Of a DNA stretch of 64,000 nucleotides, positions 15,432-55,199 are shown one piece after another. A program made the translations under genes and the position numbers. Each line of letters opens with the position of its first letter. The stretch's first letter is position 1. Below the pieces are notes generated by a model. That model was not told the origin of the DNA. It did not search any database and saw only the letters and a list, made by a program, of their open reading frames with translations. The stretch is from NCBI GenBank assembly GCA_023015825.1, contig JALKAW010000001.1, positions 496,001 through 560,000 of the forward strand. Direction: 5' to 3'. The DNA is from Flavobacteriaceae bacterium S0862 (GTDB lineage Bacteria > Bacteroidota > Bacteroidia > Flavobacteriales > Flavobacteriaceae).

Positions 15432-15502
15432 TAAATATCTATGTTGTTGTTATGTCTACAATTTGTTTTATTCTGAACTGTAGAATTTAGTTTCTGAATT
15501 GT
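15432..15502 (-). promoter_or_regulatory. LytTR-type operator and -7 element upstream of the DUF2807 lipoprotein
   Basis: On the minus strand, ACAATTCAG (15502-15494), 12 bases, ACAGTTCAG (15481-15473), 33 bases, then GATATTTA (15439-15432). Both repeats fit the published LytTR consensus [TA][AC][CA]GTTN[AG][TG], the first with one mismatch. The distal repeat overlaps the pspC-like gene's stop codon. The same layout recurs at 22066, 35458 and 55129. Confidence 0.75.
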
Positions 15503-17226
15503 TAATTATCTGTTGATTTTATGGTAATTCCACTAGAATCAATAGTGGCTTTTACTTCTCCATCTTTATATTCGATTTTTTCACTGTCTATTTCTAATGA
15601 TCCTTCATCATCTTTAATTTCAATAATTGAATCTTCTTTTTCGCAGTCTAAACACTCAATATCATTATATTTAATTTTTAAGAAATGATTTTCTTTTCCG
15701 CGTGATATAATATCTGATCCATATCTCCAACTTCTTTGGTTACGTGTGCTTTTATCGGAATAAATAACGCTTCCTTCAGGCATAAATACAGTGATTGTTA
15801 CATCTTGATCTCTAAACTTATTATCGGCATCCGTTAAGAAATAATTGTCTAATTTTAATTTCCCATCAGAATAATCAAAATTATAGTCTATTTCTTCTGC
15901 ACGATCTCTAGCATCCTGATAAGTTCTTCCTCTAGCGTCTTTTACAATTTCCATATAAGCTATAGAATCTTTTGTTGATTTCACTAAGAATCTTACGTCC
16001 GATGAGTAAATTTGCTTTTTATTATTATCATCAAATACGATGTCAAAATCATTGTTTCTGTAGTTGTTGCTAGCATATTTTTCGTTATTTACCATTTCAA
16101 CAAACAAGGTGTCGTTGGCTTTTATATTTAGCTCAATGGTATTGGTAAACTCACCTTCTCTTGAAAATTCTGCTACTTCTCTAGCTGCAAAAATGGCTAA
16201 AGTAACGATAGAAGCCAACCATAAACCAAAGAGTGTGAAATTAGCTGTTCTTCCTAAGGATTTAAGATTGTCGACCAAAATTTTCAATCCTAAAATAAAA
16301 ATGAAAAAGAATGGTATTCCAACTGCAAAAAGTACTAATAATGATACTACCCAAATTGGTAAATTGGAGGAGTAGAAAGTATGTGCCATGTCGATACCAT
16401 CAAAATTGAAAATATCTACTACGCCAACAGATAATAAGCTCACAATAAGTGAAATTAGGGTAGTAGCTCCAACAATAATTAAGATAATACCTATGAATTT
16501 GGCAAAAATCTTAAAGAAAAACATAATTACATTTCCAAGGGCATCAAAGAATGAACGTGATTTATGCTTTACCTTATTGCTAACACCGTCATAATCGGCA
16601 TTAGAAATTCGATCAGCTACACCATCAAGACTTTCTTTAACATTACTAAACCCTTCTTTTACTTTTTCTTCTATATTAGTAATGTTAACTGGCTTTCCCG
16701 ACATTGCCAGTTTTTCAGATGTTGTTTCTGCTGCTGGCATTAATATCCAAAGTAAAATATAAACAAGAATTCCTGTTCCTGCGCCAAAAAACAATAGCAC
16801 CCAAATTAGCCTAATCCATAGAGGTTCAATGCCAAAATAATGACTTAAACCAGATGAAACACCACCTATATAAGCATTTTCGGTATCTCTATATAATTTT
16901 CTTGTAGTGTCTGTTCTTGAAGATTTGTAAGATTGTTTTGGCTCGTCTTCAAATATTTCTTCATCTACTATGTAGTCCTCAGGTTGCCCCATAATAGTAA
17001 TAACTTCGTCTACTTCTTTAGTAGATACCACTTGTTTGTCGTTTTCAACTCGCTCATTGAAAAGTTCAGCGATTCGTGTTTCTATATCAGCGATTATTTC
17101 ATTTCGACCTTGGGAGTCTGTAAATGAACGTTTAATAGCCTCAAGGTAGCGTTGTAACTTTTGGTAAGCATCCTCATCTATATGAAAGAATGTACCTGCT
17201 AAATTTATATTGACTGTTTTATTCAT
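15502..17226 (-). CDS. PspC-domain membrane protein
   Basis: 574 residues. An N-terminal domain ('MNKTVNINLAGTFFHIDEDA', about 1-95) is typical of Bacteroidota PspC proteins. A PspC domain (about 105-165, 'YIGGVSSGLSHYFGIEPLWI' then 'FFGAGTGILVYILLWILMPA') follows, then further transmembrane helices (about 235-345) and a long extracytoplasmic beta-rich C-terminus. PspC relatives sense or protect the inner membrane under envelope stress. It overlaps the padR gene by 4 bases (ATGA), so PadR probably controls it. Confidence 0.88.
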   Translation of the reverse strand: MNKTVNINLAGTFFHIDEDAYQKLQRYLEAIKRSFTDSQGRNEIIADIETRIAELFNERVENDKQVVSTKEVDEVITIMGQPEDYIVDEEIFEDEPKQSYKSSRTDTTRKLYRDTENAYIGGVSSGLSHYFGIEPLWIRLIWVLLFFGAGTGILVYILLWILMPAAETTSEKLAMSGKPVNITNIEEKVKEGFSNVKESLDGVADRISNADYDGVSNKVKHKSRSFFDALGNVIMFFFKIFAKFIGIILIIVGATTLISLIVSLLSVGVVDIFNFDGIDMAHTFYSSNLPIWVVSLLVLFAVGIPFFFIFILGLKILVDNLKSLGRTANFTLFGLWLASIVTLAIFAAREVAEFSREGEFTNTIELNIKANDTLFVEMVNNEKYASNNYRNNDFDIVFDDNNKKQIYSSDVRFLVKSTKDSIAYMEIVKDARGRTYQDARDRAEEIDYNFDYSDGKLKLDNYFLTDADNKFRDQDVTITVFMPEGSVIYSDKSTRNQRSWRYGSDIISRGKENHFLKIKYNDIECLDCEKEDSIIEIKDDEGSLEIDSEKIEYKDGEVKATIDSSGITIKSTDN

Positions 17227-17564
17227 TTTTTTGTTGTTTTTTCTCTTGTTACTAGGTTAACTGCGTTTTGTAATTCGCTCCAAGTGGTATTTAATTCGTT
17301 TAAAAATAGTTTCCCCGTTTCGGTTAAGCCATAATATTTTCTTGGAGGTCCAGATGTTGATTCTTCCCAACGATAATTGAGAAGACCTGCGTTTTTTAAA
17401 CGTGTAAGCAACGGATAAATCGTGCCTTCAACAACGAGCATCTTTGCATCTTTTAAGGTGCCTAGAATCTCTGCCACATAGGCATCGTCGTCTTTTAAGA
17501 CCGATAGTATGCAGTACTCCAAAACGCCTTTACGCATTTGTGCTTTTGTGTTTTCTATCTTCAT
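17223..17564 (-). CDS. PadR-family transcriptional regulator
   Basis: 113 residues. Winged helix with 'KGVLEYCILSVLKDDDAYVA', 'LVVEGTIYPLLTRLKNAGLL' and 'SGPPRKYYGLTETGKLFL', the PadR signature. The family mostly represses its own operon and releases DNA on ligand or stress. Located immediately upstream of, and overlapping, the PspC gene. The PadR-PspC-DUF2807 arrangement is seen in other Bacteroidota. Confidence 0.92.
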   Translation of the reverse strand: MKIENTKAQMRKGVLEYCILSVLKDDDAYVAEILGTLKDAKMLVVEGTIYPLLTRLKNAGLLNYRWEESTSGPPRKYYGLTETGKLFLNELNTTWSELQNAVNLVTREKTTKK

Positions 17565-17683
17565 GTGTTCATTTTTGTTTGTGTTCTAATAGCATTTTAA
17601 AACTGATGAGGTTTTGTGATATTAGAATTAAAGTTTTTAAATAACTGTTCATTTTTTGATTGATGATCGATTGATGATTGTTT

Positions 17684-18142
17684 TTATTTTAAAAAATTGA
17701 TTGTTAATGGATATTTATAAGGTTCGCCTTGATTTGCCTTACTTGTAGCAATAATGATGAAAATGATTTCCAGTATAAAAGCTGCTATAACTAATAAGCC
17801 TGCTAAAATGGAAAATATAACCACATTATAACTATCTCTATTTGACAAATGAAAATCAAAGTCAAAATCATAAACTTGCCAAAATTCAGGAAAATTTATA
17901 TGGTTTAAAACACCAAATAAAAAAAGCGGTATTGTTATGGCTCCAATAAAAAACGTGTAAAGCAAAATACTTAACTGAAAGTTGATAGCTTGTTTACCGT
18001 GCTTATCTACAAATTCAGATTTATCCTTATTCATCGTCCAAAAAATTAATGGCATAATAAAATTTCCTAACGGAAAAATAAATTTTGATAATGCAGATAA
18101 ATGAATAATTGCTGCAACATTTTTATGGTGGTTTGATAACAT
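17684..18142 (-). CDS. DUF4870 small membrane protein
   Basis: 152 residues, about four transmembrane helices. DUF4870 landmarks are 'AAIIHLSALSKFIFPLGNFI', 'PLIFWTMNKDKSEFVDKHGK' and 'QAINFQLSILLY'. Function unknown; members are often next to PspC/PadR genes, as here. It sits 119 bases upstream of padR and may belong to the same unit. Confidence 0.85.
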   Translation of the reverse strand: MLSNHHKNVAAIIHLSALSKFIFPLGNFIMPLIFWTMNKDKSEFVDKHGKQAINFQLSILLYTFFIGAITIPLFLFGVLNHINFPEFWQVYDFDFDFHLSNRDSYNVVIFSILAGLLVIAAFILEIIFIIIATSKANQGEPYKYPLTINFLK

Positions 18143-18286
18143 GATATTAAAACATATAGTAATTTCTTATGCAAATATATGTCTAAAAAAAGGTATTATG
18201 CAATACAAAGTACTAAAATTTAACAAAAATTTAACAATTAGGATGTCACCATTTTTAAGTAACTTAGCATCAAATTACCGTTCGTA

Positions 18287-18742
18287 ATGACTATAAACCC
18301 AAGAAAACTCAATGCTTTTTTAATGTTTAAATTACCTTCAGCATATTTTACTGGAGTTAGAGCAAAGTATCTAGATAATGAAAAATGTATTGTTTCTGTA
18401 AAGCATCAATGGATAAATCAAAACCCTTTTAAATCACTTTTTTGGGCTGTACAGGGAATGGCTGCAGAGTTAACCACAGGTGCGTTAATTATAAAAAAAA
18501 TTAAGGAAACAGATAAAAATATTGCCATGTTATTAGTGAAAAATGACGCTAACTATTCAAAAAAAGCTACAGGACGTATCACTTTTGAATGTACTGAAGG
18601 AAAACTAATAGATGGTATTATTAAAAAAGTTATTGAAAGTAGGGAAGGGCAACTAGTTACTTTGAACGTTATAGGTAGAAATAGTGATAATATTGAAGTA
18701 TCTAGATTTAGTTTTACTTGGTCGATGAAAGTTAGAACCTAA
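18287..18742 (+). CDS. DUF4442 hotdog-fold (thioesterase-like) protein
   Basis: 151 residues with the hotdog pattern: 'FLMFKLPSAYFTGVRAKYLD', 'NPFKSLFWAVQGMAAELTTG' (central helix) and 'KKATGRITFECTEG'. DUF4442 proteins resemble acyl-CoA thioesterases such as YiiD/PaaI; no substrate is known. The N-terminus has no export signal, so it is cytoplasmic. It precedes the AIM24 gene in the same direction. Confidence 0.82.
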   Translation: MTINPRKLNAFLMFKLPSAYFTGVRAKYLDNEKCIVSVKHQWINQNPFKSLFWAVQGMAAELTTGALIIKKIKETDKNIAMLLVKNDANYSKKATGRITFECTEGKLIDGIIKKVIESREGQLVTLNVIGRNSDNIEVSRFSFTWSMKVRT

Positions 18743-18802
18743 TTGTAACAAAACACAAAACAAATCAACATATAAAAGAATTAACACATAAACAATATAA
18801 AA

Positions 18803-19603
18803 ATGACAGCACACGAAATTGATTACAGAATTTATGGAGAGGAAATGCAATACGTGGAAATAGAGTTAGATCCGCAAGAAGGTGTTGTAGCCGAAGCAGG
18901 AAGCTTTATGATGATGGACGATGGTATAAAGATGGAAACCATTTTTGGGGATGGCTCGCAAAAAGATTCAGGATTCTTAGGAAAGATACTAGGGGCAGGA
19001 AAGCGTATTTTAACAGGAGAAAGTCTATTTATGACTGCCTTTTATAATAATGTAAGTGGTAAAAAAAATGTATCGTTTGCGTCACCTTATCCAGGAAAAA
19101 TTGTTCCAATTGACTTATCTGAGTTTAGAGGAAAATTTGTGTGTCAAAAAGATGCGTTTTTATGTGCAGCTAAGGGTGTAAGCATTGGTATTGAATTTAG
19201 TAAAAAAATTGGTCGTGGTCTGTTTGGTGGCGAAGGTTTCATCATGCAAAAATTAGAAGGTGATGGTATGGCGTTTGTACACGCAGGAGGCACTATGTCT
19301 AAAAAAGTGTTACAATCAGGAGAAATTTTAAAAGTAGACACAGGTTGTATAGTAGGTTTTACACAAGATGTAGATTACGATATAGAATTTGTTGGAGGCA
19401 TTAAAAATACGGTCTTTGGTGGTGAAGGGTTGTTCTTTGCAAAATTGCAAGGCCCAGGTACTGTTTATATACAGTCACTACCTTTTAGTAGATTAGCAGG
19501 TAGAGTATTAGCTACTGCTCCAAGAGGAGGAGGAAAAGATAGGGGTGAAGGAAGTATTTTAGGTGGTATTGGAGATATCTTGGATGGTGATAATAGATTC
19601 TAA
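18803..19603 (+). CDS. AIM24/TIGR00266 family protein
   Basis: 266 residues, full length for the family. It has glycine-rich beta-strand repeats: '[16 protein letters not shown]', '[20 protein letters not shown]', '[20 protein letters not shown]', '[20 protein letters not shown]' and '[16 protein letters not shown]'. It is cytoplasmic and forms a beta-sandwich/trimer in known structures; physiological role is not established. Lies 60 bases after the DUF4442 gene. Confidence 0.9.
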
Positions 19604-19635
19604 GACTTTATTTTAAACTATCTGATTTTCAATAT

Positions 19636-19658
19636 TTTAACATGAATAGCATGTTAAA
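19636..19658 (+). terminator. Stem-loop after the AIM24 gene
   Basis: TTTAACATG-AATAG-CATGTTAAA, a perfect 9-bp stem 32 bases after the stop codon, followed by GTTTCT. A likely but weak terminator. Confidence 0.5.
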
Positions 19659-19780
19659 GTTTCTACAAAAACGAAATTCAATCGAATTTTTTCTTAAATT
19701 TAAAGTTAAATATTAATAAACTTTTAGCCTATAGAAACATTTCTACTTTTTATTATTTATCTATAAAACCTAAGTAAACT

Positions 19781-19978
19781 ATGGCAAGAGCAATGTTTGA
19801 GTACACTAAAACAGTACTTAAAAAAGTAAGCTTTGACGCTACATTGTTCTGTAGAGAACTAGAAAAAGCACTTCAAAGATTATTACCTTATGAAATTGAG
19901 GAGCTTAAAATTTTTATTAATTCTCTAATTCAACAGAACCCAGAATTAAATAAATGTTTAATCTATTTAAAAGCATAA
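19781..19978 (+). CDS. Small conserved Bacteroidota protein
   Basis: 65 residues, no signal peptide or membrane helix, predicted helical ('FCRELEKALQRLLPYEIEEL'). I do not recognise a named family but the size and composition match a small cytoplasmic protein often seen in Flavobacteria. It has its own upstream gap of 177 bases and a strong terminator, so it is a single-gene unit. It contains two cysteines. Confidence 0.7.
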   Translation: MARAMFEYTKTVLKKVSFDATLFCRELEKALQRLLPYEIEELKIFINSLIQQNPELNKCLIYLKA

Positions 19979-19982
19979 TTAG

Positions 19983-20947: not shown

Positions 20948-20969
20948 GCTTATAATTTTATGCTATAAA

Positions 20970-20984: not shown

Positions 20985-21033
20985 AATAAAATTTATACAA
21001 AAATACCTTTTTAATAGATTAAATTTGTGGCAA

Positions 21034-21621: not shown

Positions 21622-22041
21622 TTAGAATTTTATAGTTAACTCAATACTTTCTTTGCCTACTTCAAATTTTCCTTCTGAAAAAGTTGGCGGACCCATTAGC
21701 ATTCGGTTATTTGATATTCCAAATGACTTCATTGGCATTCCATTAGGTTCAAAGTCCATACGTTTGTTATCGTTTTCGTCATGCAATGCTAAAAGCGCAT
21801 AATTTCCAGGAGCAACATTTTTAAATGTATAGACTACTTTTCCATCTTTTACTTTTGCAGCAGTTTGTTGTAAAGGCTCAGTTTTCATAAAAGTGTCATT
21901 AGTATGAAGCCCAATAATAACGTGACCTCTTTCATTTGAAATATTTTCAATGATTACAGTTACATCTTGTGCTTTTTCTGTTTGTGCAAAGCTTAAAGTT
22001 GTGCTTAAAATTAATGTGATGATAAGAGATAAAGTTTTCAT
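21622..22041 (-). CDS. DUF2141 secreted protein
   Basis: 139 residues with a Sec signal (cut after LSFAQ). DUF2141 landmarks: 'VTVIIENISNERGHVIIGL', 'YTFKNVAPGNYALLALHDEN', 'DFEPNGMPMKSFGISNN', 'GPPTFSEGKFEV'. Predicted small beta-sandwich of unknown function. A LytTR-type direct repeat and a -7 element lie 65 bases upstream, making it a predicted target of the LytTR regulator encoded at 58.6-59.3 kb. Confidence 0.9.
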   Translation of the reverse strand: MKTLSLIITLILSTTLSFAQTEKAQDVTVIIENISNERGHVIIGLHTNDTFMKTEPLQQTAAKVKDGKVVYTFKNVAPGNYALLALHDENDNKRMDFEPNGMPMKSFGISNNRMLMGPPTFSEGKFEVGKESIELTIKF

Positions 22042-22065: not shown

Positions 22066-22136
22066 TAAAAGTCAGTTATAAAAACAAAGTATGATAATTT
22101 GAGTTACCGAACTGTAATTTTTTGCTTCTGAACTGT
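22066..22136 (-). promoter_or_regulatory. LytTR-type operator and -7 element upstream of DUF2141
   Basis: On the minus strand: ACAGTTCAG (22136-22128), 12 bases, ACAGTTCGG (22115-22107), 33 bases, GACTTTTA (22073-22066). Both 9-mers fit the LytTR consensus exactly. The distal repeat touches the stop codon of the DUF58 gene. Confidence 0.8.
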
Positions 22137-35457: not shown

Positions 35458-35528
35458 TCAATTCATCATTAAAATTTTACAGTTCAGTCATTTTAAGTTT
35501 CGTTGGCATTGCTAATGCCGCAATTTTG
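35458..35528 (+). promoter_or_regulatory. LytTR-type operator and -7 element upstream of the TonB-dependent receptor
   Basis: TCAATTCAT (35458-35466), 12 bases, ACAGTTCAG (35479-35487), 33 bases, CAATTTTG (35521-35528). Second repeat fits the LytTR consensus exactly; the first is a weaker match, as in the other sites. Spacing is identical to sites at 15432, 22066 and 55129. Confidence 0.72.
35505..35519 (+). promoter_or_regulatory. Small palindrome just before the receptor -7 element
   Basis: GGCATT-GCT-AATGCC, a perfect 6-bp stem with a three-base loop, lies directly upstream of the predicted -7 element. It could bind a repressor. The other three LytTR-type promoters do not have it. Confidence 0.4.
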
Positions 35529-35562: not shown

Positions 35563-37716
35563 ATGAGAACACTAATCACCTCACTATTAATTTTACTAAG
35601 TTTAAGTTTATCTGCTCAATCTGTTATTAGCGGAAAGGTCACCAATAATAAGGGTGTCCCAATCGAAGGTGCCAATGTATACCTTGAAGGTACTTACGAT
35701 GGAACCACTACAGATAAAGAAGGGAAATTTAGTTTCACTACTGCTGAAACTGGTTCGCAAACCTTAATAGTGTCATTTATTTCTTATGAAAAATTTACAA
35801 TGATAGGCGACATATCATACATGAAAAATATTGATATTAAACTTCGTGAGGATGTTAGTGCTCTTGATGCTGTAGTATTGTCTGCAGGAACTTTTGAAGC
35901 TGGAGATAACAGTAAAGTCAATGCACTAAAACCATTAGATGTAGTCACTACAGCAAGTGCATTAGGTGATTTTGTAGGGGCTTTACAAACCTTACCGGGA
36001 ACAGCAACCGTTGCCGAAGATGGTCGTTTGTTTGTGCGCGGTGGAGAAGCTGAAGAAACTCAAATTTTTATCGATGGTATTCGCGTGTTTACACCTTATT
36101 CTCCAACAACCAATAACACACCAACAAGAGGTCGTTATTCACCATTTTTATTTGATGGAATTACGTTCTCAACTGGTGGATATTCAGCAGAATATGGTCA
36201 AGCCTTATCGTCTGTATTGCTTTTAAATACTATTGACGAGCCAGATCAAGAGAAAACAGATATTGGTATTATGACGGTTGGTGGTACGCTTGGAAACACT
36301 CAGAAATGGGATAAAACCTCGTTGAGTATTAATGCCTCATATATTAATTTAGCACCTTATATTGGTTTGTTTCCAGATAGAAACGATTGGGGAAAACCTT
36401 ATGAAGGGCTTGCTGGCGAAACTGTTTTTAGACAGAAGTTTGACAACGGTTTGTTAAAGCTTTACGCTGCTTTTGATACGTCTAATTTTGAATTAACTCA
36501 AGAAGATATTAATTATGATGAAGGTGTGTATTTTAAAATAAAAAATAACAACCTTTATGTTAATAGCTCATACCAAGGCATGCTTAACGATACATGGACT
36601 GTTTTTGGAGGTATGAGTTATACGTACGCCGATGAAAATATTAATATTATTGATAGCGATATTCGTGACCAAGAGCACTCAGCACATTTTAAATTCAAAC
36701 TAAAAAACAGAGTTAGTAATCGACTTAAATTATATTTTGGAAGTGAATATTTCACAACAAATTTTAGTGAGGAGTATGCTTCTGATTTTGTTGCAAAAAC
36801 AGATTACGGATTTAACAACAACGTTTTTGCAAGTTATGCTGAAGCTGATATTATTTTCTCAAAAGCATTTGCTATAAAAGTAGGATTGCGAGCAGAACAC
36901 ACATCTTTATTTAATGAGTTTACCATATCTCCACGAGTATCCTTGGCTTATAAAACATCACCGAAAAGTCAAGTGTCTTTTGCTTATGGAAACTTTTATC
37001 AAAATCCGCAGAGCAATGTGTTGAAGTTCACTAAAAATATTGAATCACAACAAACAGATCATTATATATTAAACTACCAGTTCAATTCCGAAGGACGTAT
37101 TTTTAGAGCTGAAGCTTACTATAAAGATTATGATAATTTGTTAAAGTATGATGATGAGTTTATCGATTTTGATACCAATTTTTCAAACGATGGTTATGGT
37201 TTTGCTAATGGGATTGACTTATTTTGGAGAGATAATAAAAGTATTAAAAGCACCGATTATTGGGTGAGTTACTCTTATTTAGATTCTGAGAGAGATTATC
37301 GCAATTATCCAACTAAAGCACAGCCAAACTTTGCAAATACACACAACCTATCGGTTGTTGGAAAATACTTTATAGAAGATTGGAAAAGTCAAGTAGGTTT
37401 TAGTTATGCCTATGGTTCAGGACGTACCTACACCAACCCAAATATGGATGGGTTTTTAAACCAAAAAACAAAAGCTTATAATAACTTAAGCTTAAATTGG
37501 GCTTACTTGCTGAGCTCGCAAAAAATACTTTATTTCTCTATAAACAACGTAACAGGTTTTAAAAATGTAAACGGTTACCAATATGCAAACATACCAGATA
37601 TTAATGGCAATTTTGCTAGTAGAGCCTTAAAACCTGCTGCTGACCAGTTCTTTTTTGTTGGCTTCTTTTGGACGATTAGTGAGGATAATACGAGTAACCA
37701 GTTGGATAAGTTATAA
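35563..37716 (+). CDS. TonB-dependent outer-membrane receptor with carboxypeptidase-like N-domain
   Basis: 717 residues. Signal peptide (cut after SLSAQ), a CarboxypepD-reg-like beta-sandwich (about 20-105, 'GTYDGTTTDKEGKFSFTT'), a plug (about 120-230, 'VVTTASALGDFVGALQTLPG', 'RLFVRGGEAEETQIFIDGIR'), then a 22-strand-type barrel to the end. Ligand unknown; no SusD partner lies nearby, so this is not a classical SusCD pair. It has a LytTR-type promoter site 75 bases upstream, which links it to the two-component operon at 55 kb. Full length. Confidence 0.93.
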   Translation: MRTLITSLLILLSLSLSAQSVISGKVTNNKGVPIEGANVYLEGTYDGTTTDKEGKFSFTTAETGSQTLIVSFISYEKFTMIGDISYMKNIDIKLREDVSALDAVVLSAGTFEAGDNSKVNALKPLDVVTTASALGDFVGALQTLPGTATVAEDGRLFVRGGEAEETQIFIDGIRVFTPYSPTTNNTPTRGRYSPFLFDGITFSTGGYSAEYGQALSSVLLLNTIDEPDQEKTDIGIMTVGGTLGNTQKWDKTSLSINASYINLAPYIGLFPDRNDWGKPYEGLAGETVFRQKFDNGLLKLYAAFDTSNFELTQEDINYDEGVYFKIKNNNLYVNSSYQGMLNDTWTVFGGMSYTYADENINIIDSDIRDQEHSAHFKFKLKNRVSNRLKLYFGSEYFTTNFSEEYASDFVAKTDYGFNNNVFASYAEADIIFSKAFAIKVGLRAEHTSLFNEFTISPRVSLAYKTSPKSQVSFAYGNFYQNPQSNVLKFTKNIESQQTDHYILNYQFNSEGRIFRAEAYYKDYDNLLKYDDEFIDFDTNFSNDGYGFANGIDLFWRDNKSIKSTDYWVSYSYLDSERDYRNYPTKAQPNFANTHNLSVVGKYFIEDWKSQVGFSYAYGSGRTYTNPNMDGFLNQKTKAYNNLSLNWAYLLSSQKILYFSINNVTGFKNVNGYQYANIPDINGNFASRALKPAADQFFFVGFFWTISEDNTSNQLDKL

Positions 37717-42076: not shown

Positions 42077-42865
42077 TTATTCTTTAATTTCGGCTTCTAT
42101 CAAATCTAATATTTCTTGAATTCTGTTCCGTAAAGCCTCTGATTGCAGATTTGCAGCTTTATTTAAAGTAATAGCGCTTCCAAGCATAGCCTCTAACTTT
42201 CTATTGGTTAATATTTCATCCAAAGGAGCAGCGAGTTTCGAGGTTCCAATTTCTATTTTGTATAAATCCTCGTTATTATCTAATAGCCACAGATGTTTAG
42301 AATCGTTCATAAAACTATGTGAGACATCTCTACCCAAACCTAATTCTGCTAAAATTAAACGAAATTCACCATTTACAGTCTTAGACCATGTCACTTCAAT
42401 TTCTTGGACTCCAACGACATCTGACGACCAATTTGAAAGCAAGCGTTTTAATTTGTGGTTGCTAATTAGAATTAAATTACCTGAACTGGTTAAATCATTT
42501 TGTATAGGATCGTATGTTGGATCATGGAAAGTGTTAGCAATGTCTTTAACAAGACTGTCACGAATAACTTCAATGGGTTGGTCAAAAGCTTTTAATAATT
42601 TAATTGCCGAAAGAACTATGTTGTCTCTAGTCGCCATTTTTTCTTCTAATTGTATAAGATTGCCTTGATAATCTTCTTGCAGTTGTTTAAGGACAACTTG
42701 TTCTTTTATTCGGTCCTTTCTTTGTTCATTCCAATTATTTACTTGTAATGCAAGGAGGATACCAACCATAACAAGTAGTATTTCGCCAATGGCATATTTA
42801 AAGTATTTGCCCATTTTATTTTCACTCATATAGTTATATCTAATTCGTCTAAAAAACTTAATCAT
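42077..42865 (-). CDS. DUF6090 family protein (array copy 6)
   Basis: 262 residues, opening 'MIKFFRRIRYNYMSENKMGK', one membrane helix (about 25-45), then a helical extracytoplasmic region. Contains 'PIQNDLTSSGNLILISNHKL' and 'LKRLLSNWSSDV', the family's most conserved block. Closest to array copy 3 (44505), with shared 'LLKQL', 'NWSS' or 'RWSS' and 'NxQSxxLRxRIxEIxxLIExEI' patterns. It is separated from the next copy by 101 bases, the only large gap in the array. Confidence 0.85.
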   Translation of the reverse strand: MIKFFRRIRYNYMSENKMGKYFKYAIGEILLVMVGILLALQVNNWNEQRKDRIKEQVVLKQLQEDYQGNLIQLEEKMATRDNIVLSAIKLLKAFDQPIEVIRDSLVKDIANTFHDPTYDPIQNDLTSSGNLILISNHKLKRLLSNWSSDVVGVQEIEVTWSKTVNGEFRLILAELGLGRDVSHSFMNDSKHLWLLDNNEDLYKIEIGTSKLAAPLDEILTNRKLEAMLGSAITLNKAANLQSEALRNRIQEILDLIEAEIKE

Positions 42866-42966
42866 ATTTTTAGTTTCTATTTTTTCCGCAAGCGTCTATC
42901 TTCACCAAATGTCTACAGGACATTCGATTTTGTTTCACAAAATTCTGTTTTTATAATCTAAAGAAT

Positions 42967-43713
42967 TTAATCATCAATTTCAGTTTCAGACAGTTCAATA
43001 ATTCGGTTAATTGTATTAAGAACTAAATCCATCTCACCCGTTTCACTACCTAAAATTTCTTTAAGATCAAAATGTCTGTCACGTACATAATTTTCAAATT
43101 CCAAAGTTTCAAGAAAACGAATATCTATTCGTTGGTCATTAAAAAAGTCTTTATAATTATTCCAACCAAAAACCATGTGTTTTTTTTCATAAGGTTTTAA
43201 GTGGTTTTTATAATTAGATACAGCTAATATTTCTTCTTCTTGATAATCTTTAAGGATATCATTCCAACTTATTAGTGTTTTACGTAAATCATTATTTGAG
43301 ATAAGATCATATGAGGAACTGCTCGATAACGCATTTGTAATACCTTCTGATGGATTAAATGTGTAATACCAACGCATATAATGGCTATGTAAACCTAAAG
43401 AGTCAAAATTAATTGTTTTTACATCAATTGGAAATTTTGATATTATGTATTCTGCTGAATTTAATGCCCTTTTGTGATAATATCGCGCCGAATCAAATTC
43501 AATTTTGTTCTGTTTAAATTCAGTATTTAATTCTTTTAAAAGCAACTTTTCTTTGTTTCTTGCAATTCGGTTTTCATTCCAATTGTTAATACTCAAGGCA
43601 ATAAGAATTCCAATGACCACTAAAACTATTTCGCCAATAGCGTATTTTAGGTATTTACTTGTTTTGTTTTGTTCCATGAGGTCGTATCGTATTTTTCTGA
43701 AGAATTTAATCAT
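42967..43713 (-). CDS. DUF6090 family protein (array copy 5)
   Basis: 248 residues, opening 'MIKFFRKIRYDLMEQNKTSK', then a membrane helix. Family block 'SSSSYDLISNNDLRKTLISW'. Closest to array copy 2 (45301): both have 'LISWNDxxKDYQEEE' and a conserved 'NPSxxxxNAL' upstream of it. Ends ten bases before copy 4's... reading on the minus strand it follows copy 4 by 10 bases. Unknown function. Confidence 0.85.
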   Translation of the reverse strand: MIKFFRKIRYDLMEQNKTSKYLKYAIGEIVLVVIGILIALSINNWNENRIARNKEKLLLKELNTEFKQNKIEFDSARYYHKRALNSAEYIISKFPIDVKTINFDSLGLHSHYMRWYYTFNPSEGITNALSSSSSYDLISNNDLRKTLISWNDILKDYQEEEILAVSNYKNHLKPYEKKHMVFGWNNYKDFFNDQRIDIRFLETLEFENYVRDRHFDLKEILGSETGEMDLVLNTINRIIELSETEIDD

Positions 43714-43723
43714 TGATTAGTTG

Positions 43724-44512
43724 TTAATTAACGCTATTGGCTTCTAAATTGGCATTGATAATATCGAGTGTTTCTACAAAAAAAGTTCTCAGTTCAGATT
43801 CATTTAGATTAACAAAGTCATTATTCAATTTATGGATTGCAATATAATTTTCAAATTGAAGTAAATCAATTTCTTCATATTTAGCTTTAAAAGGAGATTC
43901 CGTTAATTTTTTTGTTTTGTACGTGTCAGACCAACTTGAAAAATCCATATACTGATCTTGGTTAGCTTGTGCAAAGTATTTGCTTATGTATGGAGTAATT
44001 TGATTCATGTAATAATCCGCACGGATTTTATAATCTTCCTCAGCATTTTCCAATATACCTGAAAAACTTGTTAACCTGTCTCGAAGCTCTGAATCATTAA
44101 TAATTGATAATTTTCCGGAGCTAATTACTTCATCAATGAGTCCTGATTGCGCATCAAAAGAACCAAACATATAGGCTAAATATAAAAGGCTATCAACATA
44201 GCGCGTATTAGAGAAAGGGTTCTCGCCACGAATTAAATAAATGAGGTCACTTGTAGATTTTACAGCCGCAGTGTTTAATTTTATGTTTCTGTTAAGTTCA
44301 GAGAGATTAGCTTCAAACTCTTGTTTTAAACCACTAAGTATTCTATTTTCTTCGCCTCGGTTATCGAGATCTTCTTTCCAATTGTTAAGAGAAAGCGCTA
44401 TTAAAATACCAATTACTACAAGGATTATTTCACCAATAGCGTATTTAAGGTATTTACCCGTTTTGTTTTGTTCCATGAGGTTGTATCTAATTCGTCTAAA
44501 AAATTTAATCAT
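43724..44512 (-). CDS. DUF6090 family protein (array copy 4)
   Basis: 262 residues, opening 'MIKFFRRIRYNLMEQNKTGK', membrane helix, then helical region with 'QSGLIDEVISSGKLSIINDS' and 'ELRDRLTSFSGILENAEEDY'. Its N-terminus and block resemble the isolated copy at 1704. Its start overlaps the stop of copy 3 by 8 bases (ATGATTAA serves both). Confidence 0.85.
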   Translation of the reverse strand: MIKFFRRIRYNLMEQNKTGKYLKYAIGEIILVVIGILIALSLNNWKEDLDNRGEENRILSGLKQEFEANLSELNRNIKLNTAAVKSTSDLIYLIRGENPFSNTRYVDSLLYLAYMFGSFDAQSGLIDEVISSGKLSIINDSELRDRLTSFSGILENAEEDYKIRADYYMNQITPYISKYFAQANQDQYMDFSSWSDTYKTKKLTESPFKAKYEEIDLLQFENYIAIHKLNNDFVNLNESELRTFFVETLDIINANLEANSVN

Positions 44513-45308
44513 TGGTTATTTCATTTTCAATTAACGCTATAATTTCCTCAATGCGCTTACGTAAAACATCTGATTGCACATTTGCCCAACTGTTAATAGT
44601 ATAGCATCTTGTTAAATGATCTTCTAGATCTGGATGATTTAAAAGCGCGTTGAAATCTTCTTTATGGTTAGATACTCCAATATCATCTTTAGAATAGGCT
44701 TCATTATTTTCTCCTATTTTAAGAGAATATAAACCTAAAATATTAGCTTTATAGGCGTTGCTTCGGATGGTTCTTAATTGATAATGTTTAATTAAAAAGG
44801 GAAAATATTGTTCATTTCTGTATTTTTTCCAAATGGTTTCATCTTCAATAACATCATTAATTTCTGAAGACCAACGCGAAAGAGCATGCTTTAAATTGGT
44901 GTTTTTAATTAGATTTAATTCTCCAGAACTTGCTAAATCATTAATAATTGGATCGAATGTAGCGTAAGGCATTGTTTTGGCAATATGAATATCGATACTG
45001 TCTTTGTCTCTTAAATTTGGATCGTCAATATATTTAAACAGCTGTTTAGAAGAATTCATGAAGTCCTTTCTAAAAGAAATTTTCTGATCTAATTGTTTTA
45101 AATTACTATTAAAATCGGTTAACAATTGTTTTAATAAGATTGTTTCTTGTGCTCTTTCTTTTCGACTTTCATTCCAATTATTAACTTGTAAGGCTAGAAG
45201 GATCCCAACCATAACAAGAATAATTTCACCAATGGCATATTTAAGGTATTTGCCTGTTTTGTTTTCACTCATAAGGTTGTATCTGATTTTCCGAAAGAAT
45301 TTAATCAT
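44505..45308 (-). CDS. DUF6090 family protein (array copy 3)
   Basis: 267 residues, the longest copy. Opening 'MIKFFRKIRYNLMSENKTGK', membrane helix 'EIILVMVGILLALQVNNWNE', family block 'IINDLASSGELNLIKNTNLK' and 'HALSRWSSEI'. Related to copy 6. Both flanking junctions are 8-base ATGATTAA overlaps. Confidence 0.85.
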   Translation of the reverse strand: MIKFFRKIRYNLMSENKTGKYLKYAIGEIILVMVGILLALQVNNWNESRKERAQETILLKQLLTDFNSNLKQLDQKISFRKDFMNSSKQLFKYIDDPNLRDKDSIDIHIAKTMPYATFDPIINDLASSGELNLIKNTNLKHALSRWSSEINDVIEDETIWKKYRNEQYFPFLIKHYQLRTIRSNAYKANILGLYSLKIGENNEAYSKDDIGVSNHKEDFNALLNHPDLEDHLTRCYTINSWANVQSDVLRKRIEEIIALIENEITND

Positions 45309-46038
45309 ATTTTTTAGGATCTGATAGTTGAATTATTTTATCTAATGTCTCTACAAGGACTTTTAGTTCACCACTAGTATTTAAAATTTGATCGAGTAAA
45401 TCGTAATTATTATGTATTAAGTAGTCAAATTCCACACTCAGTAAGGCATTAAGATCATTTCGAGAATCCTTATTAAAATTTAAATTCCATGTAAAATGTT
45501 TAGAGAAAAAAACCTCATATTGATTTACAGCAAAGTCTTTGGCAAATTTCTCTTCTTCTTGGTAATCTTTTACCAAATCGTTCCAAGAGATTAATAGATT
45601 GCTTAGTTCGTCGTTACTAATTATATCAAAAGAAGATGTATTTATTAGCGCATTAATACTTGTTTGAGAAGGATTGAAAGTATATCCTCCAAATGAGTTC
45701 CACATATAATGAGATAATGAATCTAAAACTCCTGGTTGAGGTATTGATGTTAAAGGGAAAAGATTGATGATTTTAGCAGTATTACTATGTGCGTCTTGAT
45801 GCGTTTTAACAACTCTTTCTAATTGAATTTTGTTTGCCTTAAACTCCTCATGAATATTTGCTAAAATGGTTGCTTCTTTATTGGAATTAATGCGATCTAT
45901 ATTCCAATTATTAACTTGTAAGGCTAGAAGGATACCAATCATAACAAGTATAATCTCTCCAATAGCATACTTAAGGTATTTACCTGTTTTACCTGTTTCC
46001 ATAAGATTGTAGCGTATTTTACTAAAGAATTTAATCAT
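45301..46038 (-). CDS. DUF6090 family protein (array copy 2)
   Basis: 245 residues, opening 'MIKFFSKIRYNLMETGKTGK', membrane helix, family block 'INTSSFDIISNDELSNLLIS' then 'WNDLVKDYQEEE'. Related to copy 5. It is coupled to copies 1 and 3 by 8-base overlaps. Confidence 0.85.
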   Translation of the reverse strand: MIKFFSKIRYNLMETGKTGKYLKYAIGEIILVMIGILLALQVNNWNIDRINSNKEATILANIHEEFKANKIQLERVVKTHQDAHSNTAKIINLFPLTSIPQPGVLDSLSHYMWNSFGGYTFNPSQTSINALINTSSFDIISNDELSNLLISWNDLVKDYQEEEKFAKDFAVNQYEVFFSKHFTWNLNFNKDSRNDLNALLSVEFDYLIHNNYDLLDQILNTSGELKVLVETLDKIIQLSDPKKYD

Positions 46039-46789
46039 TGGTATTAGTGGTTGACGTTAGTTTTATTATTTCATCAGCCAAGTTAATTGCGTCAGAATTT
46101 CTTTTTAGGCATTGGTTAATAAGGTATATATGATTTTCTAAAAGGTTTTCAAATTCTAGATCAGTTAAAATATGTCTATGGTTTGTAGGTAATTTTCCTT
46201 TTGTTGCCCAACTTGCATTGTCAATTACGCCGCCGTCTCGCCAAGAAATATATTTGTTTAGATAAGGTACAAGATCTCGCCAAACAAAATCATCTAATTT
46301 CTTGTCTCTTGCAGATATGGTGTAGACTAAACTTTTCCAATCTTCTAATTTATTTGAAAGCTCAGAGCTATTAAGTGACGTTAATTTTCCAGATTGTATA
46401 ATATCATTAATCGCATTATTTGAAGGTAAATAATCGGTACTAGGAAATATGTCATTTAATAAAGAATCAATCCTTTTTGTGCTTATATTATCTAAATTAT
46501 CTAACCCAATATGACTCATTAATTCTATAGCTCTTTTTTCAGCAAGATCATATACATTGAAAAATTTTAGAAATTGTTGTTTATTCTGTATGAACTCGGC
46601 ATTGAGGTTAGCAACAATTTTATTTCGTTCAATGGTATCTATTCTTTGTTGATTCCAACTATTAATCTGCAATGCAATGAGAATACCAATTACAACTAAC
46701 GCAATCTCACCAATAGCGTATTTAAAGTATTTGCCTGTTTTGTTTTCCATAAGGAGTGATTTTCGAATATGTCTAAAAAATTTAATCAT
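46031..46789 (-). CDS. DUF6090 family protein (array copy 1)
   Basis: 252 residues, opening 'MIKFFRHIRKSLLMENKTGK', membrane helix 'EIALVVIGILIALQINSWNQ', family block 'NAINDIIQSGKLTSLNSSEL'. First DUF6090 gene after the nitrilase gene (3-base gap). Its tail ends Asn-Asp-stop so that ATGATTAA also starts copy 2. Confidence 0.85.
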   Translation of the reverse strand: MIKFFRHIRKSLLMENKTGKYFKYAIGEIALVVIGILIALQINSWNQQRIDTIERNKIVANLNAEFIQNKQQFLKFFNVYDLAEKRAIELMSHIGLDNLDNISTKRIDSLLNDIFPSTDYLPSNNAINDIIQSGKLTSLNSSELSNKLEDWKSLVYTISARDKKLDDFVWRDLVPYLNKYISWRDGGVIDNASWATKGKLPTNHRHILTDLEFENLLENHIYLINQCLKRNSDAINLADEIIKLTSTTNTND

Positions 46790-50761: not shown

Positions 50762-50925
50762 TTTGTGGTTGGTTTTTAGTTGTTTACTAAAATAGTAGAA
50801 TTAAAGTTACCCATCAACTTTTTTTAAGTATTTAATATTCAGTTGTTAACTGATTTTTGTCATGTTTTTTGATATTAGATAATCGTAATTTCATACTTAT
50901 ATTATAATTATTAAAACTAAGAGTC

Positions 50926-51651: not shown

Positions 51652-52528
51652 GAAGTGATATAGTTTCTCCAGCCAAGACTTTAACAGGCAATTGGTTTTG
51701 TCTAGGAGGATATAAACAGGTTGTAAACTCACTAAAAGCACACGGCGGATTATAAAGTTTGTTAAAATCAATCTTTACTAATCCGTTTTGTTTTGGTAGA
51801 TCTAAATAGAAATATCTACCACCTCCATATGTTGTATCTCCATTTGTAATATCACCTACCATTGTAAAACCATCTGCGCCAACTTCAAGCATATAAGTTT
51901 CGTTTTGATAGTTAAAACTTACTTTTCCAATAAAGTTTATACTTCGTTTGCCATCAACTTTTGCTTTTACAACTTCAGATTTTTCTTTGTCGTAATAGCT
52001 AAACTCACCTTCAAGAATAAAGTTGCTATTTAGGTCAAATTTTTCAAATCCTTTAAATGCTTCTATACCTGGATTTTTTGAATCCCAAACTCTTAGGTAT
52101 TGTTGGTTGGATCTTGTTATGATTTGCCAACTTAATCTATCATGATAGAGTTTTAAAGAACTTCCATATTGGTTTAATGCTAATGGTGTTTTTGTTATAA
52201 TGGAATCTCCTTTCGTTTTTATTATTACATCTTGATTAGCAACTAAGCTTAAAGAATCTCCTTTCATTATCATGTTTCCAATGGTTTCAGGTAGAGCATC
52301 AATTTTTAGAACAAGGCTATTTTTTTCGTTTTTTCCAAAAGTATTTTCCCCAGTATCTAATTTATATAAAGCAATTAATTGTAAATAATCTCCTTTTCGC
52401 TCTTCCATTTTAGTATCAAAAAAGGTTTTTATTTCTGAACGATAATTATCGTCTATAACAAACCTGTTGTCGTTATTTTTACAGCTCGTAAGAACTATTA
52501 CTATTATCAAAACTTGAAGGATTCTCAT
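51629..52528 (-). CDS. DUF1684 lipoprotein
   Basis: 299 residues. Lipoprotein signal (MRILQVLIIVIVLTSCKN). DUF1684 core with 'FFDTKMEERKGDYLQLIALY', 'GGGRYFYLDLPKQNGLVKID' and the C-terminal signature 'FNKLYNPPCAFSEFTTCLYP' then 'PRQNQLPVKVLAGE'. Exported to the envelope; function unknown. It overlaps the end of the convergent tonB gene. Confidence 0.92.
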   Translation of the reverse strand: MRILQVLIIVIVLTSCKNNDNRFVIDDNYRSEIKTFFDTKMEERKGDYLQLIALYKLDTGENTFGKNEKNSLVLKIDALPETIGNMIMKGDSLSLVANQDVIIKTKGDSIITKTPLALNQYGSSLKLYHDRLSWQIITRSNQQYLRVWDSKNPGIEAFKGFEKFDLNSNFILEGEFSYYDKEKSEVVKAKVDGKRSINFIGKVSFNYQNETYMLEVGADGFTMVGDITNGDTTYGGGRYFYLDLPKQNGLVKIDFNKLYNPPCAFSEFTTCLYPPRQNQLPVKVLAGETISLLNQPIQN

Positions 52529-52675
52529 TGAGATATATTTAGATTAGAAAGTTAAAGAATTTTCAATTAAGGATTTTAATTTATTTGATTTGATTAAAAT
52601 TATGTTCATATTCGTAACTTTATGCAAAGTATATCGTCTTATTAATATTAATTTATATCGAAATAAAGTCGTTAA

Positions 52676-53224
52676 ATGAAATTATTTGTAAAGGAAGTTG
52701 TCAATTCGATGAAGTACATTGGAGCTATTGCGCCTAGTTCTAAATACTTAGCAAATAACATTATTAAGCATATAGATTTTGATGAAAACCAAATTATTTT
52801 AGAGTTTGGCTGTGGAAATGGAGCAATTACTAAACGAATTTTAAAGCAAATGTCAACTTGTTCAAGGTTAATTTCATTAGAAATTAATGACCCTTTTATG
52901 AAGCATTGTCAAGATAAATTTAAGGTGTATAATAATTTTGAAATTTATAATCACTCAGCTATTGACTTTGATTTGCTTTTAAATGAGTTAGAAATTGAAA
53001 AAGTAGATTATTTGGTTTCTAGCTTACCACTTGCTATTTTGCCAAAAGCAGATTTAGATATCTTATTTAAGAAAATACCACAATACTTAATTAATGATGG
53101 TAGTTTTGTGCAATACCAATACAGTTTGAATAAATACAAGTTTCTAAAAACTGTTTTCGACTCAGTAAAACTTGGTTTCACTCCAATAAATTTACCTCCA
53201 GCGTTTATTTATAGGTGCTCTTAA
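52676..53224 (+). CDS. PmtA-like class I SAM-dependent methyltransferase
   Basis: 182 residues. Motif I 'IILEFGCGNGAITKRIL', then 'LISLEINDPFMKHCQDKF', 'VDYLVSSLPLAILPKADLDI' and 'GSFVQYQYSLNKYKFLKTVF'. The N-terminus 'MKYIGAIAPSSKYLA' and 'SSLPLA' context match bacterial phosphatidylethanolamine N-methyltransferases/rRNA-dimethylase-like proteins. Lipid or RNA target is not decided. Confidence 0.82.
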   Translation: MKLFVKEVVNSMKYIGAIAPSSKYLANNIIKHIDFDENQIILEFGCGNGAITKRILKQMSTCSRLISLEINDPFMKHCQDKFKVYNNFEIYNHSAIDFDLLLNELEIEKVDYLVSSLPLAILPKADLDILFKKIPQYLINDGSFVQYQYSLNKYKFLKTVFDSVKLGFTPINLPPAFIYRCS

Positions 53225-53233
53225 TACTACTTT

Positions 53234-55039
53234 CTATTGTTTACGTTTTGCGGTAAATGTTCCATTTGGCTGTATAAAGTTTGCCTCAATAATATTACCA
53301 TTATCATCTTCAATAAACTCTACTTTAAAGCCATCAAGAATTTTTAAGCTAAATTTATGTTTAGCAAGTGCCAATAATTCGTATTCTGGCTGACCAGCTA
53401 CGAACATATAAAGTACATTTTTATTTTTAATATAAATTTTTATTGTTGTACCTGCTAATTCATACTCACCTATATAATTATTTAAATCTTCTGCTGTTAC
53501 ATCTATAGTCTTTGGAGTACGCTTAAAAGAAATTGGATCTGGTAAAGCAGGTTCTATTTGTGCTTCCATACCAGAAATATCTCCGCTTGTATTCATTATG
53601 AATTTAAATCGTAACGGACCATAATCTGTTGTGTCAATTCCCTCTTCTTCTACTTGAAAAGGCTCAAACACATCATAATGCTCATGTTTTAACCACATTT
53701 TAATTAATTTAAAATTAACAAATAATGAATCTCGTTCTACATTTACATTAAATTTACCATAAGCAGGATGTGAATACGTTCCAGTATATTCTTGTTTAAT
53801 ATGTGATGGTTTTGTGTTTTTTACTTGAGTAGATGTTTGTTTGTCTTTAGCTTCGGACTGAGTCTTTTTTGCTTTTTCTAAATCATCAATAAATCGTTGG
53901 GTCCAATCAGTTTTATTAACATTTAACATACGATCTGCTATTGTGTTTCTAACTAAACTTGGTACTTGTGAGCCATTTTGATTGGTTAATACCACAATAC
54001 CTAGACTATCACTTGGATAAAAGGCTGCATTAGCCGAAAAACCATCAATATTACCTCCATGTTCAACACGATAATGACCTTTATATGAAGACATCATCCA
54101 CCCATAACCATAACTTGATAAATGTAAACCAGGCGTTTCTTTCGATGGAAGGTTGGCATTAATTATCATTTGAGAACTCATTGCTTCATTAATATATGTC
54201 TCGGGAATAATTTCTTTATCATTAAATTTTCCTTTGTTTGTCCAGGTAACTAACCACCTAGACATATCATTTACGCTACTGTTTATGCTACCAGCTGGTG
54301 ACATAGCAGCAATATCGTAATATTCCATTTTTGAGTTAGAATTATCCTTTTTGGTTTCATATCCAAAGGCAGCATTACTCGCAGTTTTCATTTCGTCTAT
54401 TGTAACGTTTGTCCTAGACATTCCTAACGGTTGTAGAAAGCGTTCTCTAATGTTATCTTCCCAACTTTTTCCAGTAATCTTTTCAGCAATAACCCCTTGT
54501 GCTAAAAACATAAAATTGTTATAATACCATTGCTGTCTAATACCTGTAAAAGGTTCTTGGTATTTTATACGTTGAATTAAGCTGTCTCTATCGAAAGTAG
54601 GAAACAAGTACCAAGAATAATCATGACGAGGAAGCCCTGTTCGATGGCTCATTAAATCTTTAATAATGATATTATTATTCATGTCATCGTTGTAAAATTC
54701 CAATTCAGGAATATATTTTCTTGGACTATCATCAAAAGACAATTTGTCTTCTGATCTTAATTGCCCTAAAACGGCTGAAGTAAAAGCCTTAGAGCTTGAT
54801 CCTATAGCAAATAATGTATTGGCATCTACTGGAAACTTGTTTTCAACATCACGATAACCAAACCCTTTAGCATAAACAATCTTACTACCTTCAACTACTG
54901 CTACAGCAAAGCCTGCAGCGTTTGTAGCTTCAAGAACCTTGTTTAGTTCTTTATCAATGTTTTTTAAGCGTTTATCTGTTTGACTTATTGTTGGAAGAAT
55001 AAAACAAATGCTTAATACTGCAAAAAATAACTTTTTCAT
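53234..55039 (-). CDS. Secreted beta-lactamase-fold serine hydrolase with DUF3471
   Basis: 601 residues, signal peptide (cut near TISQ). Class C-type core: Ser81-x-x-Lys84 ('FAIGSSSKAFTSAVL'), Tyr173-x-Asn175 in 'QWYYNNFMFLAQGV', and 'YRVEHGGNIDGFSANAAFY' as the third motif (HxG). A DUF3471 beta-rich C-terminal region follows (about 410-600). Such proteins are D-aminopeptidase/esterase-like, and true beta-lactamase activity is not implied. Divergent from the operon at 55225. Confidence 0.92.
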   Translation of the reverse strand: MKKLFFAVLSICFILPTISQTDKRLKNIDKELNKVLEATNAAGFAVAVVEGSKIVYAKGFGYRDVENKFPVDANTLFAIGSSSKAFTSAVLGQLRSEDKLSFDDSPRKYIPELEFYNDDMNNNIIIKDLMSHRTGLPRHDYSWYLFPTFDRDSLIQRIKYQEPFTGIRQQWYYNNFMFLAQGVIAEKITGKSWEDNIRERFLQPLGMSRTNVTIDEMKTASNAAFGYETKKDNSNSKMEYYDIAAMSPAGSINSSVNDMSRWLVTWTNKGKFNDKEIIPETYINEAMSSQMIINANLPSKETPGLHLSSYGYGWMMSSYKGHYRVEHGGNIDGFSANAAFYPSDSLGIVVLTNQNGSQVPSLVRNTIADRMLNVNKTDWTQRFIDDLEKAKKTQSEAKDKQTSTQVKNTKPSHIKQEYTGTYSHPAYGKFNVNVERDSLFVNFKLIKMWLKHEHYDVFEPFQVEEEGIDTTDYGPLRFKFIMNTSGDISGMEAQIEPALPDPISFKRTPKTIDVTAEDLNNYIGEYELAGTTIKIYIKNKNVLYMFVAGQPEYELLALAKHKFSLKILDGFKVEFIEDDNGNIIEANFIQPNGTFTAKRKQ

Positions 55040-55128
55040 TGTAGTTGGTTTAAAGATTTATGTATAGTTGGTTAGTCAAGAAAAGAGTTATAAAGTTACT
55101 GTTTTTTGATGAATTTTATTAAAAACCT

Positions 55129-55199
55129 ACAATTCATCTAATTATTATTACAGTTCGGTAATTCCATTTATTATAAATGAGTTTTTGAATAGATATTTG
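55129..55199 (+). promoter_or_regulatory. LytTR-type operator and -7 element of the two-component operon
   Basis: ACAATTCAT (55129-55137), 12 bases, ACAGTTCGG (55150-55158), 33 bases, GATATTTG (55192-55199). It precedes the operon that encodes a LytTR response regulator, so autoregulation is likely. The layout equals the three other sites. Confidence 0.8.

Follow-up and report, generated by a model that had tools for sequence, protein, structure and literature searches.

Regulators of the LytTR family, AgrA and ComE among them, and the architecture of their binding sites are already known. In LytTR regulatory systems (LRS), the LytTR regulator stands under a membrane inhibitor instead of forming part of a kinase/receiver pair. 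Streptococcal LytTR promoters, such as those of HdrR and BrsR, carry two 9-bp direct repeats with a mostly 12-bp spacer, and LRS operons generally show a strong bias of the repeats to 10 bp upstream of the -35 element (PMC6193735). Here we analyze a 64,000-nucleotide stretch of the genome of Flavobacteriaceae bacterium S0862 (GenBank GCA_023015825.1, contig JALKAW010000001.1, positions 496,001 to 560,000; hereafter the window), in which four promoters share a rigid composite signal of such repeats and a -7 element. The four sites are probably (roughly 0.85) activator-type promoters of one autoregulated LytTR two-component regulon that controls a HusA/HusB-like uptake module.

The locus resembles described LytTR two-component systems in its paired 9-bp direct repeats with a 12-bp spacer, in its receiver-LytTR regulator with repeats ahead of the regulator's own operon, and in the position of the repeats, which lie 9 bp before a -33 element here and about 10 bp before the -35 element there. 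It differs from them in its Bacteroidota-type core promoter (T-rich -33 element and NAnnTTTG at -7), in a kinase with its own 2TM domain, in an operon that encodes free 2TM proteins, and in a regulon of envelope genes over 40 kb of the window. Like the LRS HdrRM and BrsRM, it has repeats of the autoregulatory kind and genes for small membrane proteins beside that of the regulator, but Response_reg and His_kinase domains are present, and the LRS arrangement of a membrane inhibitor in place of a kinase/receiver pair is not found.

HusA of Porphyromonas gingivalis has a hydrophobic groove for haem and other porphyrins, and uptake is attributed to the TonB-dependent receptor HusB; homologues of HusA are reported from Bacteroidetes only (PMC6173696; PDB 6bqs/6crl). 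The window likewise encodes an exported TPR-like protein accompanied by a TonB-dependent receptor, but two docked groove aromatics are not conserved, and the module is coupled to a LytTR system, DUF2141, and DUF2807. The phage-shock-protein (PSP)/Lia envelope-stress systems with Toastrack domains (PMC11237479) offer a further comparison, as DUF2807/Toastrack and PspC-LiaI-LiaF-TM-Toastrack genes adjoin one of the regulon promoters. The window differs from these systems in having a LytTR regulator in place of the wHTH regulator LiaR, with a site only at the DUF2807 gene, and lacks a LiaRS-type kinase and HTH regulator over the PspC/Toastrack genes. A scan of the own genome at two mismatches found no site ahead of PspC or PadR genes.

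The Flavobacteriaceae are a major marine and soil family in which, to our knowledge, few transcription-factor regulons have been described. We found no description of this regulon, of its promoter grammar in Flavobacteriaceae, or of the HusA-like link in the open-access literature, subscription papers lying outside the search. The regulon can be read from sequence alone with base-pair rigidity and can serve in Bacteroidota as a template for promoters that depend on an activator. It also links a HusA homologue with DUF2141, DUF2807, 2TM proteins, and an orphan TonB receptor, so that several families without known function can be tested as components of a single uptake or envelope module, whose ligand and signal become directly testable as well. 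A LytTR/histidine-kinase pair was mutated in a Flavobacterium johnsoniae coevolution study (PMC10197871); we do not equate that pair with the system of the window.

Four composite sites in the window

Each site consists of a 9-bp repeat, 12 bp, a second 9-bp repeat, 33 bp, and a -7 element of the form NAnnTTTR, 71 bp in all. Site 1 lies on the minus strand at 15432-15502 (distal repeat 15502-15494, proximal repeat 15481-15473, -7 element GATATTTA at 15439-15432), as does site 2 at 22066-22136 (22136-22128, 22115-22107, and GACTTTTA at 22073-22066). The plus strand carries site 3 at 35458-35528 (35458-35466, 35479-35487, and CAATTTTG at 35521-35528) and the putatively autoregulatory site 4 at 55129-55199 (55129-55137, 55150-55158, and GATATTTG at 55192-55199). 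The distal repeats are ACAATTCAG, ACAGTTCAG, TCAATTCAT (one base off), and ACAATTCAT, and every proximal repeat is either ACAGTTCAG or ACAGTTCGG, all of them exact matches to the LytTR consensus [TA][AC][CA]GTTN[AG][TG], as the preliminary description had it. From the proximal repeat to the ATG there are 66, 65, 75, and 66 bases at sites 1 to 4. Re-reading the window confirmed the coordinates, sequences, N12 and N33 spacings, and start-codon distances first reported for the four sites. All 4/4 window sites thus show paired 9-bp direct repeats separated by 12 bp, where 11-13 bp is accepted for a LytTR promoter.

The paired-repeat pattern ACARTTCRK-N12-ACAGTTCRG was used for searching, with the reversed pattern as a control. 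At up to three mismatches it matched the window exactly four times, always at the described sites, while 100 dinucleotide shuffles of the window gave a mean of 0.33 matches and a maximum of 3. At up to two mismatches the four window sites were the only matches in the 3.35-Mb genome, and they lie together in 40 kb of contig C11. The full composite at up to three mismatches recovered the four sites and one 3-mismatch match on another contig.

Sites 1 and 2 begin on the last base of the stop codon of the preceding gene (a PspC-Toastrack gene and a DUF58 gene of a MoxR cluster, respectively), and therefore appear to be internal promoters of gene clusters.

Occurrence in the family and association with the regulator

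The paired repeat (at most one mismatch) is present in 123 of 199 Flavobacteriaceae genomes, sampled one per genus. An orthologue of the window regulator was found in 155/199 genomes at E 1e-30, and its distribution follows that of the signal: both occur in 123 genomes, the regulator without the strict signal in 32, the signal without the regulator in 0, and neither in 44 (Fisher 8.7e-24), genomes without a match being derived by subtraction from the printed matches. The preliminary description had connected the signal with the operon's regulator, and this connection is borne out, as all 123 signal genomes have the regulator at E 1e-30 and 0/44 regulator-less genomes have the strict signal. 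At E 1e-80 a single signal-positive genome (G079, in 610 contigs) loses its regulator match. Thirteen of the 32 regulator-positive, strict-signal-negative genomes were re-read at the operon with a looser pattern, and the composite was found with at most two mismatches in 13/13; the reversed control gave one 4-mismatch match. Of 64 loci from relatives, 63 have the composite in the 7 kb upstream of the regulator (62 with at most two mismatches and one with three); at the exception, L053, the contig extends only 1.7 kb beyond the regulator on that side. A class-wide draw recovered the signal in 8/9 family members and 8/286 others.

The sites also cluster at the regulator gene. Using 134 sites among the matches listed, 44/58 on contigs of at least 500 kb lie within 50 kb of the regulator, where 4.4 are expected. 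In the class-wide scan, a genus outside the family is represented by three genomes (G237, G276, and G310) that carry the variant site ACCRTTCATG...ACAGTTCRGG with the same spacings, which may belong to a related but distinct LytTR regulon.

The concern that the motif might occur at random genome-wide is answered by its restriction to four sites in the own genome at two mismatches and by the 123/199 genomes against 6/199 for the reversed pattern. A chance similarity or the copy-number spread of a repeat element would find its one point of support in the two matches that the reversed pattern gave in the own genome at two mismatches. Elsewhere this control stays low, with 0 matches in the own-genome composite, class-wide, and 64-locus scans, the spacer sequences vary among sites while repeats and spacings are fixed, and the sites precede the same genes in other genera. 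On the reversed-pattern controls and the divergent spacers we reject such an origin, whose probability we regard as negligible.

It is very unlikely, though conceivable, that the same regulon is bound by another member of the LytTR family and that the operon is merely one of its targets. The window contains a single LytTR regulator, that of the operon, as the preliminary description had stated, but the whole genome holds ten LytTR domains, and the sites of different LytTR members resemble each other. However, the signal occurs without the operon's regulator in 0/123 genomes at E 1e-30 and 1/123 at E 1e-80, and the sites concentrate near the gene for this regulator. The closest of eight paralogues compared, L209 (41.5% identical), was found at E 1e-85 in 1/199 genomes, the own genome only, and was rejected as the binder, with the reservation that orthologues under about 55% identity could escape this limit. 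Orthologues of the paralogue L208 (E 3e-60 or better) are present in only 35/123 signal-positive genomes. Against assigning all the sites to the operon's regulator weigh, besides the ten LytTR domains, the coverage of the paralogue controls (two paralogues, L208 and, at the strict E 1e-85 only, L209), the re-reading of only 13 of the 32 regulator-positive genomes that had no strict match, and the shared ancestry of the genomes, which are hence not independent observations.

Promoter architecture

The geometry was examined at 128 distinct sites defined by the repeats only, taken from 100 regions among the matches listed and 30 loci, the own four included. NAnnTTTR lies exactly 33 bp downstream at 118/128 of these sites, and at other offsets it occurs on average 1.1 times and at most 8 times. 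At offset 33, SAnnTTTG was counted 88 times and TAnnTTTG 6 times, which agrees with the earlier remark that the -7 elements lack the first T of TAnnTTTG. Conversely, with the proximal repeat and the -7 element as anchors, the distal repeat was found at spacer 12 in 173/188 cases, the next best spacer counting 4.

A larger composite set comprises 283 sites, for which a -7 element at 33 was required, so that the conservation of the -7 element and repeats in it is partly by construction; positions 10, 41, and 75-76 were unselected. Position 41, inside a T-rich stretch (40-43) that starts 9 bp past the proximal repeat, is T in 99% of the 283 sites and in 3/4 window sites. Position 10, directly 3' of the distal repeat, is C in 78%, and an initiator-like C/T followed by A/G (YR) stands at positions 75-76. 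The proximal repeats in the window fit the LytTR consensus exactly; at position 4, where the consensus has G, the distal repeats mostly have A (73% of the 283 sites).

The unselected initiator-like signal places the predicted +1 five bases after the -7 element. With +1 at position 76, the -7 box would span -12 to -5 and the T-rich element -36 to -33. In Flavobacterium psychrophilum, sigma-A TAnnTTTG boxes are located at -12 to -5 according to a start-site study, in the main text of which 'LytT' and 'ACAGTTC' do not occur (PMC9723704). Judged by these features, the architecture is the LytTR-activated promoter type fitted onto a Bacteroidota core promoter.

We infer the following mechanism. The kinase would sense an envelope or ligand cue and phosphorylate the LytTR response regulator (58562-59317), which would bind all four sites. 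Two regulator subunits would occupy the 9-bp direct repeats, which are offset by two helical turns (21 bp), on one face of the DNA, at about -75 to -67 and -54 to -46 and nine bases upstream of the T-rich -33 element. The bound regulator would then recruit sigma-A RNA polymerase to a promoter with its -7 box at -12 to -5, which is presumably weak because this box is without the first T of TAnnTTTG. Since the operon of the regulator, the 2TM-domain kinase, and the stand-alone 2TM protein(s) carries the same signal, positive autoregulation is predicted. The conserved output would be an envelope module consisting of the HusA-like TPR protein, its TonB receptor, DUF2141 proteins, and the DUF2807 lipoprotein.

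The direction of regulation is not readable from sequence, and the -7 element starts with T at 13% of the 283 sites, as might be expected if the regulator mainly repressed, or modulated an independent promoter, instead of acting as an obligate activator. We consider this very unlikely, as the distance from the repeats to the -33 element downstream of them is constant, no repeat overlaps the core promoter, and the -7 box deviates systematically from the consensus in the proportion given above. Moreover, Streptococcus LytTR promoters of the same geometry are activated (PMC6193735).

Target genes

Downstream genes were assessed for 197 sites, combining 1-mismatch sites from the genome scan with 2-mismatch sites from the relative loci after removal of exact duplicates; 186/197 have the -7 element. 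At the 195 sites with a readable open reading frame (ORF), the downstream gene encodes DUF2141 (51), the TPR protein (49), the TonB receptor (40), DUF2807 (18), or the kinase (16). These 174/195 sites agree with the earlier grouping of the DUF2807 lipoprotein, DUF2141, the TonB receptor, and the TPR/2TM operon under one signal. The remaining 21/195 sites precede small groups or singletons, and 7 of them belong to groups entirely without a -7 element.

The signal is conserved, and not scrambled, before orthologues of the target genes. The composite was found upstream of 30/30 top-scoring DUF2141 orthologues (at most 3 mismatches of 23), 30/30 top TonB-receptor orthologues (29 with at most 2 mismatches of 23 and one with 4), and 25/30 top TPR orthologues (at most 3 mismatches of 23). 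For the other 5/30 TPR orthologues, the gene directly before TPR is a copy of DUF2141, and the composite precedes that copy. Reversed controls for these upstream regions start at 5 mismatches.

The target of site 1 is a DUF2807 (head GIN/Toastrack) lipoprotein encoded at 14681-15406 on the minus strand (PF10988, E 1.4e-45). Its upstream region was checked in 68 orthologues among the matches listed, from 56 regulator-positive, 2 doubtful, and 10 regulator-less genomes. A site lies directly upstream in 44/56 regulator-positive genomes, and the composite was found in 2/10 regulator-less and 0/2 doubtful genomes. Three points on this gene count against the proposed regulon. The site is not directly upstream of DUF2807 in 12/56 regulator-positive genomes; in 5 of these (G024, G029, G130, G140, and G175) it is about 0.6 kb upstream, and 7 are unexplained. 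Two regulator-less genomes retain the composite, G006 with 1 mismatch and G159 with 4 mismatches, the latter looking like loss with a decayed site. Finally, the regulator-less control is itself weak because some of its 10 matches are distant homologues (36-62% identical).

The gap of about 0.6 kb in the five genomes leaves space for one small gene (L173, position 629). A protein of 169 aa whose start resembles a signal peptide begins in this gap in G029, and belongs to a group of four downstream genes. G006 (L312, C8:40000-52000; L361) is without a regulator match, and in the stretch read its TPR gene is interrupted by stops and only a fragment of the TonB receptor is left; DUF2141 is nevertheless readable and the composite before DUF2807 is kept. 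G006 apparently represents a recent natural loss of the system.

Site 2 precedes a DUF2141 protein (21622-22041, minus strand; PF09912, E 9.5e-28) with a signal-peptide-like start and conserved residues in an EF-hand-like stretch, HDENDNxxMD. DUF2141 proteins have this EF-hand-like stretch in common (consensus HDENDNGKMD), which suggests metal binding, and several residues are invariant in 22 aligned sequences, where the window protein is represented by 21622-22038 without the start methionine. A fold search with the DUF2141 model (pLDDT 81) found nothing that reached E 0.001.

HusA-like protein and TonB-dependent receptor

The first gene of the regulator operon, and the target of site 4, encodes a TPR-fold protein with a signal-peptide-like start (55225-55845, plus strand). 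It matches HusA (6bqs/PG_2227) in a phmmer search (E 1.3e-11) and a profile search (4.1e-15), and its predicted structure (pLDDT 92) aligns with HusA at a Foldseek E of 8e-7 and TM scores of 0.79/0.80, the next best match being 2.3e-3. By sequence and predicted-fold homology, the TPR protein is therefore assigned to the HusA family. It matched no family when scanned against Pfam, and LcrH/SycD identity was rejected, as the weak NCBIfam match (22.7 of 104.8 bits) was taken as generic TPR similarity.

Site 3 precedes a TonB-dependent receptor with a CarboxypepD_reg domain (35563-37716, plus strand), a candidate counterpart of HusB. As in HusAB, the TPR protein goes with a partner receptor: 104 genomes have both, 5 have TPR only, and 0 have the receptor only. 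This pair, at the centre of the putative regulon, goes beyond the preliminary description. The 104 include a weak pair in G030 (receptor 34% and TPR 26% identical) and an interrupted receptor in G072, and the TPR-only genomes are G006 (degraded), G037 (fragment), G023 (28% identical), G089 (41%), and G193 (36%). In G072 (C47:39802-41759) the receptor orthologue is broken by stops, and the regulator, TPR gene, and composite site are kept. A search of solved structures with the receptor gave no match at E 0.001. SusC/RagA identity was rejected, as only the N-terminal carboxypeptidase-like domain matches (58 of 368 bits, far below the cut-off). In four genomes (G016, G033, G119, and G186) DUF2141 and TPR are fused in a shared open frame.

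Most likely the module captures haem/porphyrin, or a hydrophobic ligand like it, and takes it up. A HusA-like module for a ligand other than haem or porphyrin, or a regulon that is chiefly an envelope-stress response with DUF2807 and the PspC/Toastrack gene as key outputs, has a considerable chance of being correct, somewhat short of even. In a hand-read alignment, with the paper's residue numbers taken as chain + 21, the groove aromatic F80 of HusA is kept as F70, while W130 and Y164 are replaced by glycines, so the ligand may differ from that of HusA. In addition, DUF2807 has been merged with Toastrack into one family and connected with PSP/Lia systems (PMC11237479), and site 1 is directly behind the PspC-LiaI-LiaF-TM-Toastrack gene. 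On the other hand, co-occurrence among the outputs is tightest for the HusA-like protein with the TonB receptor, and DUF2807 is still present in genomes without the regulator.

Regulator operon

Downstream of the TPR gene, on the plus strand, are the N-terminal membrane part of a histidine kinase (55871-56170), the remainder of the kinase with a His_kinase domain (PF06580) and a C-terminal 2TM domain (PF13239) at 56197-57261, three stand-alone 2TM-domain proteins at 57252-57599, 57605-57958, and 57965-58234 (PF13239; E 1e-20, 7.7e-25, and 7.7e-14, respectively), a small protein with no family above the cut-off (58257-58562), and the LytTR response regulator (58562-59317). The last combines a receiver (PF00072, E 2.7e-14) with a LytTR DNA-binding domain (PF04397, E 1.4e-22) and is the proposed activator. 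As in known LytTR promoters, a regulator with a LytTR DNA-binding domain thus has the signal ahead of its own operon. In relatives the order is (TonB receptor)-(DUF2141)-TPR-kinase-2TM proteins-regulator, of which the bracketed genes, and in some loci TPR too, can be missing.

The frame of the kinase is broken between 56170 and 56197 in the own assembly, where the N-terminal part is out of frame with the next ORF, and the pathway may therefore be impaired in this strain, which counts against the proposed reading. The break may be a sequencing or assembly error or a real defect of the strain. Among the 64 relative loci searched, the kinase parts are in one frame in 20/20 with both parts found.

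At least one free 2TM protein lies between the kinase and regulator in 63/64 relative loci (L005-L068, counted by hand). The free proteins share PF13239 with the C-terminus of the kinase and are possibly a built-in brake or sensor. We offer tentatively the more specific proposal that the regulon, family-wide in Flavobacteriaceae and positively autoregulated, provides dedicated control of tetrapyrrole capture by the HusA-like protein and TonB receptor, with the free 2TM proteins as titratable brakes or sensors of the kinase. If true, free copies of the kinase's own 2TM domain would be a new feedback design for two-component systems.

Other genes of the window

Apart from the regulon, six tandem ORFs with a common N-terminus (MIKFF..IR...KYAIGEI) are located at 42077-46789, and one more such ORF is found at 1704-2495. 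The latter, the sole scanned member of this group, matches DUF6090.

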